IMG/VR virus record: IMGVR_UViG_3300049847_000717
Span: 1-26,138 of that record
Source: a virus
DNA length: 26,138 bases
Reading direction: 5' to 3' (one strand)
Positions 8,893-19,706 of the stretch are shown here, one piece after another. Below the pieces are notes generated by a model. That model saw only the letters and a program-made list of their open reading frames with translations, was not told where the DNA came from and ran no database searches. Every line of letters begins with the position of its first letter. Position 1 is the stretch's first letter. Position numbers and translations under genes: made by a program.

Positions 8893-9273
8893 ATGGGCAA
8901 CGTAGCAAACTTACAACCACAAAAATCGGGTGAACCGTCCAAAAACCCGAATGGTCGCCCGAAAGGCTCGCGTAATCGCTCGACGATTCTCAAGAAATGG
9001 TTGTCCGTCAAAACTTTAATCAAGCATCCGATTACGAAAGAAGACATCAAAGTAACGGTCGAGGACGAAGTAGTTTTATCGCTGATAAAAGAAGCTCGAA
9101 AAGGCGATGTCCGGGCGATCCGTGAAATTCTCGACACGATGTATGGCAAGATCACGGAGAAAACGGAATTGACCGGCGCGGACGGCGCACCGATCAAACA
9201 CAACGTAATCGGCGAAGTTTCATTTCTGATTAACGAGATTTACAGTGATGACAGCGAATCCGGCACTGATTAA
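8893..9273 (+). CDS. terS: Terminase small subunit-like protein (DUF5681 type)
   Basis: A 126-residue basic protein. Residues 10-30 contain the motif KSGEPSKNPNGRPKGSRNRS, the marker of DUF5681, a family usually encoded directly before a large terminase and taken as a small-terminase or DNA-recognition protein. A helical middle (KEARKGDVRAIREILDTMYG) and an acidic end follow. Its last 26 bases overlap the start of the large terminase in another frame, so translation is coupled. It would recognise phage DNA and present it to the packaging motor. The function is inferred from the motif and position. Confidence 0.75.
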   Translation: MGNVANLQPQKSGEPSKNPNGRPKGSRNRSTILKKWLSVKTLIKHPITKEDIKVTVEDEVVLSLIKEARKGDVRAIREILDTMYGKITEKTELTGADGAPIKHNVIGEVSFLINEIYSDDSESGTD

Positions 9274-11644
9274 ATTTATCAATCTCGCTCACGCGGCACG
9301 TCTTCCGAAAAGTTCACTCGAAAGATTTTTGTCGGCGGGTTATGTTCCGCAACCACGGCAACTTGAATTTCACGCCGCCGCCCGCGAATCCGATCATAAT
9401 GAATTATTAACAGAAATTTGCTACGGCGGGGCGCGTGGCGGCGGCAAAACCCATTGCATTTTTGCCGGTGTTTCGATAGATGATTGTCAAATGTTCCCGG
9501 AACTGAATGTTTTATTTTTGCGAAAAAAAGCGGGTTCGGCTGAGGAAAGCGTTGATAATTTGACGCGCCGGATCTTGAGGAACATCGCGCATAAAACAAC
9601 GCGCGGATTGGTTAAATTCGCAAACGATTCAAGAATAAAAATCGGACATTTTCAATATGAAAAAGATATTGACCAATATCTGTCGCTCGAATACGATTGC
9701 ATTATTATCGAGCAAGCCGAACAACTGACGCCCGCCAAACTGATAGATATTCTTTCGGTCAACCGAACATCACGATCCGATTATAAACCGCGAATGTATT
9801 ACTCGCTCAACTGGGGCGGCGTCGGTCACGCATATTTGAAAAAGAAATTTTATTTGCCTTATCTTGAAAACAGAGAAATTGAAACGCGATTTATACCGGC
9901 GACGGTTTATGATAATCGCAAAATAAATAAAGGCTATTTAAAAAATCTTGAACAGCTTGTCGGCTGGAAGCGTAAAGCATGGCTCGAAGGTTCGCCCGAC
10001 ATTGCCGCCGGACAATTTTTTACGAATTTCAATTCGGCAATTCACATTTTGCCGCCCGAAAATATTCCGTTTATGCGCTATGCTCAATTTTGGTGCGCAT
10101 TGGATTACGGCTACGGTCATTATACTGTTTGCTATTTGCTGATGAAATCAGACGGCAAAATTTATGTTTTAGCCGAACATGCCGACCGCAAACAGCCGGT
10201 TTCTTACCACGCGGAAATGATTCACGCTTTACTTGCCCGCTTTGATCTGACGGTTGACGATCTGACGGATTTCGTTGCCGGAACCGATGTTTTCGCGCAG
10301 CGCGGCGCGCGGGATGCGGAAACGATCGCCGATCAATACGAGGAATGCGGCATCAGACTGACCGAAGCGAATACCGACAGGATAAACGGCGCGGCAATGA
10401 TTCTCAAACTTCTCGGCGATGCGGAATTAAACATCGAACCGAAACTTTTCATTTCTTCAAACTGCGCTTATCTGATCGAGTGTTTGCCAACGCTTGAACA
10501 CGACCCGAAACGCCCGGAAGATGTAAAAAAAGTTGACACGGACGAAAACGGCAACGGCGGTGATGATGCTTACGATTGTTTTGTTGCTGGAACTTTAATT
10601 ACCACAATCAGGGGACAAAAACCGATTGAGCAAATCAAAATCGGTGAATTGGTTTTAACGCGAGAAGGTTTCAAACCTGTTTTGTCGAGTTGGAAAAAAC
10701 GAAAACTTCATACGGTTTTGAAGGCTGAGTTTTCGGATGGAACGCAGATAACAGCAACGCCGAATCACCCGCTTTGGTTGGAAGAAAAAGGTTTTACTTA
10801 TCTTGACTCGTTGCGATACGGTGATATAATAAATACTATATGGCAAAACAAGTATTATCAGAAACAATTGAATTCAATGGCATCAAATTCAGACGTTATC
10901 CAAACTCTACAAAATCCAACCATAGACGCTATTACAGTCCGGGCGGCAACCATATTAAACGAGGTGTGCAATCATTACACATTGAAATATGGAAGTCAGT
11001 TCACGGTGAAATTCCTAAAGGCTCTCAAATTCACCATAAAGACGGAAATCCGCTCAATAATTCAATCGAAAATTTGGAATGTCTTACTCCAAAAGAACAT
11101 AGTCAGGAACATTTTTCTAAAACTGAGCGACTTACAAACGCGCGAAAACACATTGAAACAATCAGACCTTTGTCATCTGCTTGGCATTCATCAATTAAAG
11201 GGCGCGAATGGCATTCCAAACACGGAAAAGAAGTTTTTGGAAACAGACCGCAAGTTTCAAAATCTTGTGAACAATGCGGCGCAAATTATTCTACAAAAGT
11301 TCCATATAAATCCCGTTTTTGCTCAAATAAATGTAAATCCAAATGGCGGCGCGATAATAAAACCGACAATGTTATTAAACAATGCGAACGATGTAAAAAG
11401 GAATTTTCGTCAAATAAATACGAAGATTTCCGATTTTGCTCAAAAATCTGTTCAGCCCGTTCGACTGCATTCTTTAGCCGAGAACGGCAAATCTGACGTT
11501 TTCGCTCTTTTTGTTGCTGATTGTCACGAATATTATGCAAACGGAATTCTCGTTAAAAATTGTTTGCGATACGGGCTAATGGTTAATATTTCAACCTATG
11601 ACGCGCCCGAAAGCGGAACACCCTACGACAGTTATTTTCAATAA
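9248..11644 (+). CDS. terL: Terminase large subunit interrupted by an intein
   Basis: A 798-residue precursor; the spliced protein would be 470 residues, a normal terminase size. The ATPase has Walker A G60-GARGGGKT68 and a Walker B-like CIIIEQAEQL around residues 151-160, where EQ replaces the usual DE. The nuclease domain shows D286 (CALDYGYG), D347 (AGTDVFA) and D443 (DDAYD), the spacing expected for the RNase H-like fold. The intein follows D443 directly, and the C-extein resumes with CLRYGL, so the joined sequence DDAYDCLRYGL matches the usual D-x-x-R-Y-G end of terminases. The ATG at 9248 is preferred; a GTG directly before it (9245) is possible. The protein packages DNA into proheads. 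Until splicing occurs its nuclease centre should be disrupted. Confidence 0.9.
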   Translation: MTANPALIKFINLAHAARLPKSSLERFLSAGYVPQPRQLEFHAAARESDHNELLTEICYGGARGGGKTHCIFAGVSIDDCQMFPELNVLFLRKKAGSAEESVDNLTRRILRNIAHKTTRGLVKFANDSRIKIGHFQYEKDIDQYLSLEYDCIIIEQAEQLTPAKLIDILSVNRTSRSDYKPRMYYSLNWGGVGHAYLKKKFYLPYLENREIETRFIPATVYDNRKINKGYLKNLEQLVGWKRKAWLEGSPDIAAGQFFTNFNSAIHILPPENIPFMRYAQFWCALDYGYGHYTVCYLLMKSDGKIYVLAEHADRKQPVSYHAEMIHALLARFDLTVDDLTDFVAGTDVFAQRGARDAETIADQYEECGIRLTEANTDRINGAAMILKLLGDAELNIEPKLFISSNCAYLIECLPTLEHDPKRPEDVKKVDTDENGNGGDDAYDCFVAGTLITTIRGQKPIEQIKIGELVLTREGFKPVLSSWKKRKLHTVLKAEFSDGTQITATPNHPLWLEEKGFTYLDSLRYGDIINTIWQNKYYQKQLNSMASNSDVIQTLQNPTIDAITVRAATILNEVCNHYTLKYGSQFTVKFLKALKFTIKTEIRSIIQSKIWNVLLQKNIVRNIFLKLSDLQTRENTLKQSDLCHLLGIHQLKGANGIPNTEKKFLETDRKFQNLVNNAAQIILQKFHINPVFAQINVNPNGGAIIKPTMLLNNANDVKRNFRQINTKISDFAQKSVQPVRLHSLAENGKSDVFALFVADCHEYYANGILVKNCLRYGLMVNISTYDAPESGTPYDSYFQ
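10803..10830 (+). promoter_or_regulatory. Predicted sigma70-type promoter inside the intein
   Basis: TTGACT at 10803-10808 (five of six consensus bases), a 16-base spacer, and a perfect TATAAT at 10825-10830 preceded by TG at 10822-10823 as an extended -10. Transcription would begin about 10836-10838, two to four bases before the ATG of the HNH gene. The sequence also encodes the conserved LDSLRYGD part of intein block B, so coding and promoter functions overlap. Activity is inferred from consensus only. Confidence 0.6.
10840..11496 (+). CDS. HNH homing endonuclease encoded out of frame inside the intein
   Basis: A 218-residue protein in a frame shifted against the terminase/intein frame. 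The HNH core at residues 47-91 has the pattern H-x2-I-W then GEIPKGSQIHHKDGNPLNN, IENLE and H87, with catalytic candidates H65/H66, D68, N70 and N78. It is typical of HNH_3-type homing nucleases. Residues 20-45 (YYSPGGNHIKRG) resemble the short DNA-binding lead segments of such enzymes. Two Cys4 zinc ribbons follow: C143/C146/C161/C165 and C182/C185/C200/C204. No good SD precedes the ATG, but a promoter ends ten bases upstream, so a near-leaderless message is likely. It stops just before intein block F. It would cut intein-free terminase alleles and so drive intein spread; that target is inferred. Confidence 0.85.
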   Translation: MAKQVLSETIEFNGIKFRRYPNSTKSNHRRYYSPGGNHIKRGVQSLHIEIWKSVHGEIPKGSQIHHKDGNPLNNSIENLECLTPKEHSQEHFSKTERLTNARKHIETIRPLSSAWHSSIKGREWHSKHGKEVFGNRPQVSKSCEQCGANYSTKVPYKSRFCSNKCKSKWRRDNKTDNVIKQCERCKKEFSSNKYEDFRFCSKICSARSTAFFSRERQI

Positions 11645-18971: not shown

Positions 18972-19024
18972 ATAGATGTAGTATAATTATTGTAAGTAAA
19001 ATTACAATAAGGAGCTACATCTAT
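18972..19024 (+). promoter_or_regulatory. Hairpin over the SD and start codon of the HNH gene, with an internal -10 box
   Basis: The outer stem is a perfect 10 bp, ATAGATGTAG (18972-18981) with CTACATCTAT (19015-19024), and takes in the first two bases of the start codon. The inner stem is 9 bp, TTATTGTAA (18987-18995) with TTACAATAA (19002-19010). The SD AAGGAG (19009-19014) is split between inner stem and internal loop. TATAAT at 18982-18987 fills the opposite side of the loop. No good -35 is seen. Confidence 0.7.
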
Positions 19025-19706
19025 GAAGCAATGTATCCAGTGCGGCGAAAACAAGTTCTTTGAACAATTCTATGTTAAGCGGAAATTGCCGGACGGCACT
19101 AACCAATATCAATCATATTGCAAAGATTGTTATGCGGAACGGCAAAAAAATCCTGAGACAAAGAAATCTCCTTTTAAGAAGGTGGTAATGACGGCGGAAG
19201 AGCGTCGGGAAAGGCGAAATGAGCAAGCCCGACTTTACAACCAGAAACCTGAGCGCAAAAAGTATATGAGTAAATATGCTAAAGAAAATGCGGATAAGGA
19301 AAAGGAAAAGGCAGTCCGATATTACCAAAATCATAAAAACGAGATTATTGCTAAAACAAGGCTTTACCGGAAATTAGAACCGGAAAAAGCGCGTTTAGCG
19401 GTAAAAAAATGGCGCAAAGCAAACGAGGATTATCTTGTTCCGCAAAACGCAAAACGCCGCGCAAAAGTGTTAAGCGTGATAGGTGTGTTTACTGCTAAAG
19501 AATGGCAAGAACAAAAAGAACGGCAAAATTTTATTTGCCTGATGTGCAAGCGAAAAGAACCGGAAATTAAATTAACTGCTGACCACATCATACCGCTTAC
19601 ATTAGGCGGAACAAATACGATTGACAACATTCAAGGGCTATGTAAATCCTGCAATAGCAGAAAACACAATAAAACACTTGATTTGAGAAATGAATTGATT
19701 AAATAG
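19023..19706 (+). CDS. Free-standing HNH endonuclease with N-terminal zinc ribbon
   Basis: A 227-residue, very basic protein. Residues 4-36 hold two C-x2-C pairs (C4/C7 and C33/C36) forming a zinc ribbon. Residues 50-165 are Lys/Arg/Glu-rich and helical. Residues 172-215 form an HNH domain with C172/C175, D187-H188 (TADHIIPLTLGG), N202 (TIDNIQGLC), C207/C210 and H215 (NSRKHN), the zinc-bound McrA/HNH type. It is probably a mobile homing nuclease that cuts phages lacking it; cutting near the capsid gene is inferred. It sits between the capsid gene and the next head gene, with a hairpin over its ribosome site. It may also assist packaging, as HNH proteins do in some phages. Confidence 0.85.
   Translation: MKQCIQCGENKFFEQFYVKRKLPDGTNQYQSYCKDCYAERQKNPETKKSPFKKVVMTAEERRERRNEQARLYNQKPERKKYMSKYAKENADKEKEKAVRYYQNHKNEIIAKTRLYRKLEPEKARLAVKKWRKANEDYLVPQNAKRRAKVLSVIGVFTAKEWQEQKERQNFICLMCKRKEPEIKLTADHIIPLTLGGTNTIDNIQGLCKSCNSRKHNKTLDLRNELIK

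Follow-up and report, generated by a model that had tools for sequence, protein, structure and literature searches.

What does an intein in a phage terminase gene amount to when the DNA of its central linker also encodes, in another reading frame, a complete endonuclease? This question is raised by the large terminase gene (terL) in the window analysed here, by which we mean the whole 26,138 bases of an IMG/VR virus record. The reading we favour, at a probability of roughly 84%, is that of a phage intein with a separate HNH mobility gene written over its linker in another frame (Table 1).

Table 1. Features of the terminase locus and of the gene nested in it, in positions of the window
Feature	Position	Strand	Evidence
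Probable terminase small subunit (DUF5681), context gene	8893..9273	+	Pfam PF18932, E=9e-10
TerL N-extein (large terminase), up to nuclease motif GGDDAYD	9245..10576	+	PHROG terminase large subunit, E=1e-19; 45-56% identity to intein-less TerLs L052-L059
Intein, 328 aa, Cys1 to C-terminal Asn	10577..11560	+	Hint_2 / Intein_splicing; AF2 HINT fold; Foldseek gp41-1 intein; clean empty site
N-terminal splicing part (blocks A and B)	10577..10843	+	HMM and tblastn matches, ~200 loci
-35-like box TTGACT, in intein codons Leu-Asp	10803..10808	+	Promoter scan, 11 of 12 together with -10; class-wide enrichment
-10-like box TATAAT, extended TGA, in intein codons Asp-Ile-Ile; 16-bp spacer, ends 9 bases before HNH ATG	10825..10830	+	P=0.01 for window, synonymous null
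Nested HNH endonuclease gene, 218 aa, ATG start, -1 frame relative to TerL	10840..11496	+	Pfam HNH_3; phrog_15471; alignments A1/A6; AF2
Intein linker in terminase frame, overprinted by HNH gene; without stop, predicted mostly disordered	10844..11497	+	
C-terminal splicing part (blocks F/G, ...CHEYYANGILVKN)	11498..11560	+	AF2 strands 308-327; C-block HMM
C-extein from +1 Cys (CLRYGLMVN...), TerL end with stop	11561..11644	+	Alignment to intein-less TerLs

The TerL ORF (9245-11644) is a single open frame throughout, so that the host gene is unbroken in the window, and Pfam matches to Hint_2 (2.8e-7) and Intein_splicing fall within this frame. Cys1 is present, T61 and H64 of block B are conserved, and the insert ends at the junction ...ILVKN|C with the +1 Cys at 11561-11563; both N328 and C329 are near-invariant in the alignment of intein class members (A5). 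An AF2 model made from an alignment of class members folds a splicing domain out of residues 1-80 and 308-329, with pLDDT mostly 92-97, and leaves most of the linker below 50. Searching solved structures with this model in Foldseek returned the gp41-1 intein as the best match (E=4e-7), and DnaB inteins were also matched. Furthermore, the site is found empty in eight TerLs, 45-56% identical over the N-extein, which run through the insertion point without an insert. The earlier note had read the intein blocks as intact in the terminase frame, and the Pfam matches and the HINT fold bear this out. With an N-terminal Cys and blocks A and B, a C-terminal Asn followed by Cys +1, a HINT fold and an in-frame insertion in an intact extein, the insert is an intein by sequence and predicted fold, and one that would be expected to splice. 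An RNA (group I) intron was rejected, as an Rfam scan of the window gave no match and hence no known RNA family of that kind. A canonical intein with an in-frame homing endonuclease was likewise rejected, the HNH lying in the -1 frame, as was a split intein or fractured gene, which is found at L014, L022, L029 and L072 but not in the single open frame of the window.

Read in the HNH frame, the same DNA matches Pfam HNH_3 (E=8e-17) and PHROG phrog_15471 (1e-35). The predicted protein holds the catalytic core at HH residues 65-66, Asn 74/78 and His 87, all of which (H65, H66, N74, N78, H87) are invariant in the HNH alignment, followed by two zinc ribbons (C143/C146/C161/C165 and C182/C185/C200/C204), and the alignments retain catalytic and zinc residues across the relatives. 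Its AF2 model reaches a mean pLDDT of 94.3, from DNA whose intein-frame reading scores mostly below 50. The gene starts at about intein residue 88 and stops at about residue 307, coinciding exactly with the linker, and this agrees with the earlier description of a complete HNH protein with two zinc ribbons between blocks B and F. Across the HNH gene, the remaining frame holds 23 stops, as expected for AT-rich DNA. Comparison of the HNH profile with solved structures gave no match, nor did a DNA-level search of the phage collection. Having the core residues of the HNH homing endonucleases, the protein is a candidate for a homing role. Two other genes of the window may be recorded here: among the structural genes, at 19023-19706, lies another free-standing HNH endonuclease gene (HNH_5), unrelated to the nested one, and near the left end (100-1131) a 343-aa ORF with a Cys-rich motif, CHKKCGFC, that by eye resembles radical SAM enzymes.

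The layout is that of a class, as the earlier note had suspected. With only the HNH as query, 50 viral loci were retrieved, and in most of them the HNH lies in frame f-1 relative to intein blocks in f. Further scans, with E-values that are relative to the candidate sets searched, led to a non-redundant set of 149 contiguous inteins at 90% DNA identity, in which 141 carry the HNH in -1 and one in +1, five carry distant HNH relatives in frame (L184, L186, L213, L221 and L222, all cellular contigs) and two are mini-inteins. Whether the HNH frame is routinely broken in homologues, a point on which the earlier note had made its claim depend, was also looked into: the ORF is unbroken in 140 of the 141 -1 loci, and its start codon is ATG in 128 of 138 assigned starts. 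When loci were sampled by the C-terminal splicing block instead of the HNH, 77 of 78 complete loci had the HNH in -1, one was a mini-intein and none had it in frame, in a sample whose search pattern was derived from class members and in which one clade dominates. The exceptions look like decay as expected, with a stop inside the nested HNH at L010 and, at L047 (1970-2242), a lost HNH core in a still open intein frame, which we regard as a decay intermediate. In L042, L043 and L046 the C-terminal zinc-ribbon region of the nested HNH has no match to the class profile, and L042 has a repeat-like W[RK]xxNPEL... stretch in its place.

The host genes are TerLs of many PHROG families, mostly with the insertion at the nuclease motif (...DNH|C...N|CxDAxRY), and nested layouts are also found elsewhere in TerL, in a portal gene (L182 Asaia, L321-L325) and in a DNA methyltransferase gene (L048). 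Two inteins share one terminase gene at L028 (1953-4151), L169 (1730-4132), L295 (1791-3557) and L306 (1683-3071); both are of the nested type in the first three, and in L306 a mini-intein comes a few extein residues after the nested intein. Another mini-intein is that of L063. Among deposited phages the layout is present in Tetrasphaera phage TJE1, Acinetobacter phage Highwayman and Rhodobacteraceae phage LS06-2018-MD07, where the annotation over the HNH reads only 'terminase large subunit'; TJE1 is the only actinobacterial phage of the phage collection among full-length matches to the window intein. PHROG phrog_30251 ('terminase') aligns over the whole intein, the overprinted linker included, so the layout is already hidden in family databases; the earlier expectation that such linkers would be met in terminase entries has thus been confirmed.

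The absence of stops from the intein frame exceeds what the HNH coding sequence would give by chance. Synonymous codons were shuffled within each HNH gene and stops counted in the intein frame: 91 non-redundant -1 loci have 0 stops against 2.26 expected per gene, and as these loci mostly share ancestry and are not independent trials, no combined probability is given. For the window alone, shuffles of its own codons give P=0.012. The equivalent frame of free-standing HNH relatives has 5.9 stops against 6.0 expected, and that of split relatives 8.1 against 8.0. A second clade (L307-L320, L332-L335) has the opposite frame relation, with the intein at +2 of the HNH, and here too 0 stops were found in the intein frame in 10 of 10 non-redundant members tested, where 5.0-12.1 were expected in each; the frame used by the main class carries 8-14 stops in this clade, which represents an independent solution or a frame switch. 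Judged from the free relatives, about 6 stops would have to be lost for nesting in -1 and about 15 for nesting in the other frame, and the bias to -1 therefore fits composition. One free-standing HNH gene, that of Pseudomonas phage PAE1 (L069, 2222-2812), has 2 stops in its +2 frame against 8.7 expected (P=0.001), which may be a trace of earlier nesting.

Substitutions indicate on which of the two frames selection acts. In nested pairs they fall 29/25/45% at HNH codon positions 1/2/3, and in free or split relatives 28/22/50%. The third position of an HNH codon is the second of an intein-frame codon, so the linker is altered by most of the changes that were accepted. Nested pairs average 59% identity in the HNH frame versus 44% in the intein frame. 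These substitution patterns show that selection maintains the HNH protein, with the linker as a passive filler that need only avoid stops, which supports the earlier view of the linker as a by-product of the HNH.

The two components also appear to travel together. Between the window and L041 the N part of the intein is 57% and the HNH 56% identical, and the TerLs 39%; other locus pairs show HNH identities of 55-68% versus 25-28% for TerL. Intein-less TerLs, for their part, are up to 56% identical to that of the window. These identities point to joint transfer of intein and HNH between divergent TerLs. Free-standing relatives of the HNH lie beside terminase genes in Pseudomonas phage PAE1, Acinetobacter phage BP10, Exiguobacterium phage vB_EauM-23 and Salmonella phage Shemara, and others lie between the halves of fractured TerLs with split inteins (L014, L022, L023, L024, L029, L072, L154, L168, L172, L173), mostly in Firmicutes phages and prophages, including Lactobacillus phage CL2 (L072). 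In all of these fractured genes the C half keeps a +1 relation to the HNH and begins near or inside its 3' end, and the frame of the N half varies.

Three other explanations have to be weighed against an overprinted mobile intein. The displaced frame could be an artefact, with an in-frame endonuclease shifted by two sequencing or assembly errors or reached by programmed -1 and +1 frameshifts, and the HNH does sit where canonical inteins hold their endonuclease domains, just as the distant relatives in the cellular contigs are in frame. Yet the out-of-frame state recurs with an open intein frame in 141 non-redundant loci, including the three deposited phage genomes, and the second clade uses the other frame; these loci and this second frame refute sequencing or assembly error, which the earlier note had named as a threat to its own claim. 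The HNH has, moreover, its own ATG and its own stop, and a stop in its frame usually lies 0-5 codons upstream of that ATG, so that a programmed frameshift into the HNH would have almost no space, if any, and is unlikely. A displaced frame of either origin is, in our judgement, highly improbable. Much the same low probability attaches to the HNH frame being a decaying leftover and the intein linker the functional product. The stop in L010, the missing core of L047 and the mini-inteins (L063 and the second of L306) would suit such a history, but the HNH ORF is unbroken in 140 of 141 cases, changes are most frequent at HNH position 3, where they are non-synonymous in the intein frame, identity is lower in the intein frame than in the HNH frame, and the linker is predicted to be disordered.

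It is also unlikely that the HNH is a packaging-associated protein, similar to HK97 gp74, which came to be nested in TerL by chance and is not a homing enzyme. HK97-type HNH proteins assist the terminase in cutting DNA, as discussed in PMC10448857, and the free-standing relatives adjoin terminase genes, both of which would fit such a role. Against it stand the nested forms in the portal gene (L182, L321-L325), the DNA methyltransferase gene (L048) and several TerL sites, the close relatives that lack the entire element and have a precise empty site, and the joint movement of intein and HNH between divergent TerLs.

A candidate signal for expression of the HNH lies within the intein codons upstream of its start. 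In the conserved LDxLRYGDII, Leu-Asp gives TTGAC and Gly-Asp-Ile-Ile gives TGATATAAT, which in the window amounts to a sigma-70-like TTGACT-16-TATAAT. Against a null that keeps the intein amino acids and draws synonymous codons, consensus-based matching in 137 loci found exact TATAAT in 19.7% versus 6.8%, and an extended -10 in 24.8% versus 7.5% (p=3e-10); control positions in the upstream extein showed no excess (4.0% versus 4.0%). The boxes lie mostly at about -15 or at -25 to -45 from the HNH start, and strong ones are present in only about a fifth of the loci. Simple promoter matches in the window number 3, versus 2.9 expected in shuffles. Shine-Dalgarno-like sequences occur at 31% of HNH starts versus 16% of control ATGs, are not above the synonymous null (p=0.12) and were for this reason rejected as a general HNH signal. 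We put at about even odds that one DNA segment carries three layers, namely the intein protein, a sigma-70 promoter in LDxLRYGDII and an independently expressed HNH gene. Such a promoter would uncouple the endonuclease from late terminase expression, and would let it arise apart from the late terminase from a nearly leaderless or short-leader mRNA.

We propose the following model for the overprinted intein. Translation in the terminase frame would yield TerL with its 328-aa intein, which, given its intact blocks, its fold and the +1 Cys, should excise itself and restore the terminase nuclease domain. In the -1 frame, translation from the HNH start codon would yield the 218-aa endonuclease as a free protein, its mRNA coming, as the enrichment of promoter-like boxes suggests, probably from the internal sigma-70-type promoter in LDxLRYGDII. 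The HNH should then cut intein-less terL at the insertion site, to which the empty sites, the horizontal transfer and the nuclease family all point, and repair of the cut gene would copy both intein and HNH into it. Selection, as the substitution patterns show, maintains the HNH sequence, and its one demand on the intein frame is the absence of stop codons. As to origin, the HNH tree mixes nested, free and split forms; most split forms fall in a single clade, and the second-frame loci form a clade with few other members. A plausible path is one in which a free HNH gene cutting terL invades a mini-intein, the stops are removed, and fracture follows in some lineages.

With canonical mobile inteins, which have an in-frame LAGLIDADG or HNH endonuclease, the element shares the HINT domain, an endonuclease region between blocks B and F, a conserved active-site motif as the insertion point and the logic of homing; it differs in that its endonuclease is encoded in another frame, between a start and a stop codon of its own, and would be made as a protein apart, untied to splicing. 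In 2009 Dassa et al., under a title that names a new endonuclease family, reportedly described fractured genes in which split inteins are accompanied by a separate gene for an endonuclease. There, as here, splicing parts and endonuclease are separate products of the same place, and relatives of the window HNH do lie between TerL halves (L014, L022, L072 and others), a link between nested and split inteins through relatives with fractured terminase genes. Unlike those genes, the window intein is contiguous, its HNH overlaps it fully rather than lying between two pieces of the host gene, and the enzyme is of the HNH family and not of the new family of that title. Among published cases the ShiLan element comes nearest: a phage methylase holds an HNH out of frame, no intein splicing motifs, fold or known intron were found, the host protein is thought to tolerate the insert, and expression of the HNH was left open, with leaderless initiation suggested (PMC11855218). 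The window shares with it an out-of-frame HNH in a stop-free insert. Here, by contrast, the HNH lies inside a complete intein splicing domain, in most cases within TerL, and such loci make up a much larger class, found across divergent phages. Overlapping frames in phage inteins may also be the subject of a 2025 preprint by Gosselin et al. on "non-canonical" inteins of actinobacteriophages, to go by its title and by the way PMC11855218 cites it. Full-text searches of the open literature, which did not extend to this preprint, turned up no paper on an intein that has an HNH gene written over it in another frame.

An intein fully overprinted by a separate gene would stand beside in-frame and split inteins as a third way to combine splicing and mobility, and one that is used at scale. 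Because the HNH is nested in this way, it goes unnoticed in annotation pipelines and PHROGs, where the overlap appears simply as terminase, and the putative internal promoter suggests an answer to how such hidden HNH genes get expressed. Furthermore, overlapping genes can be studied in this class as a natural experiment, since both possible frames occur and free-standing relatives serve as controls. Finally, the overprinted linker, predicted to be mostly disordered, suggests that the splicing domains of this class can accommodate linkers of any sequence, a property that would be of use in engineering.
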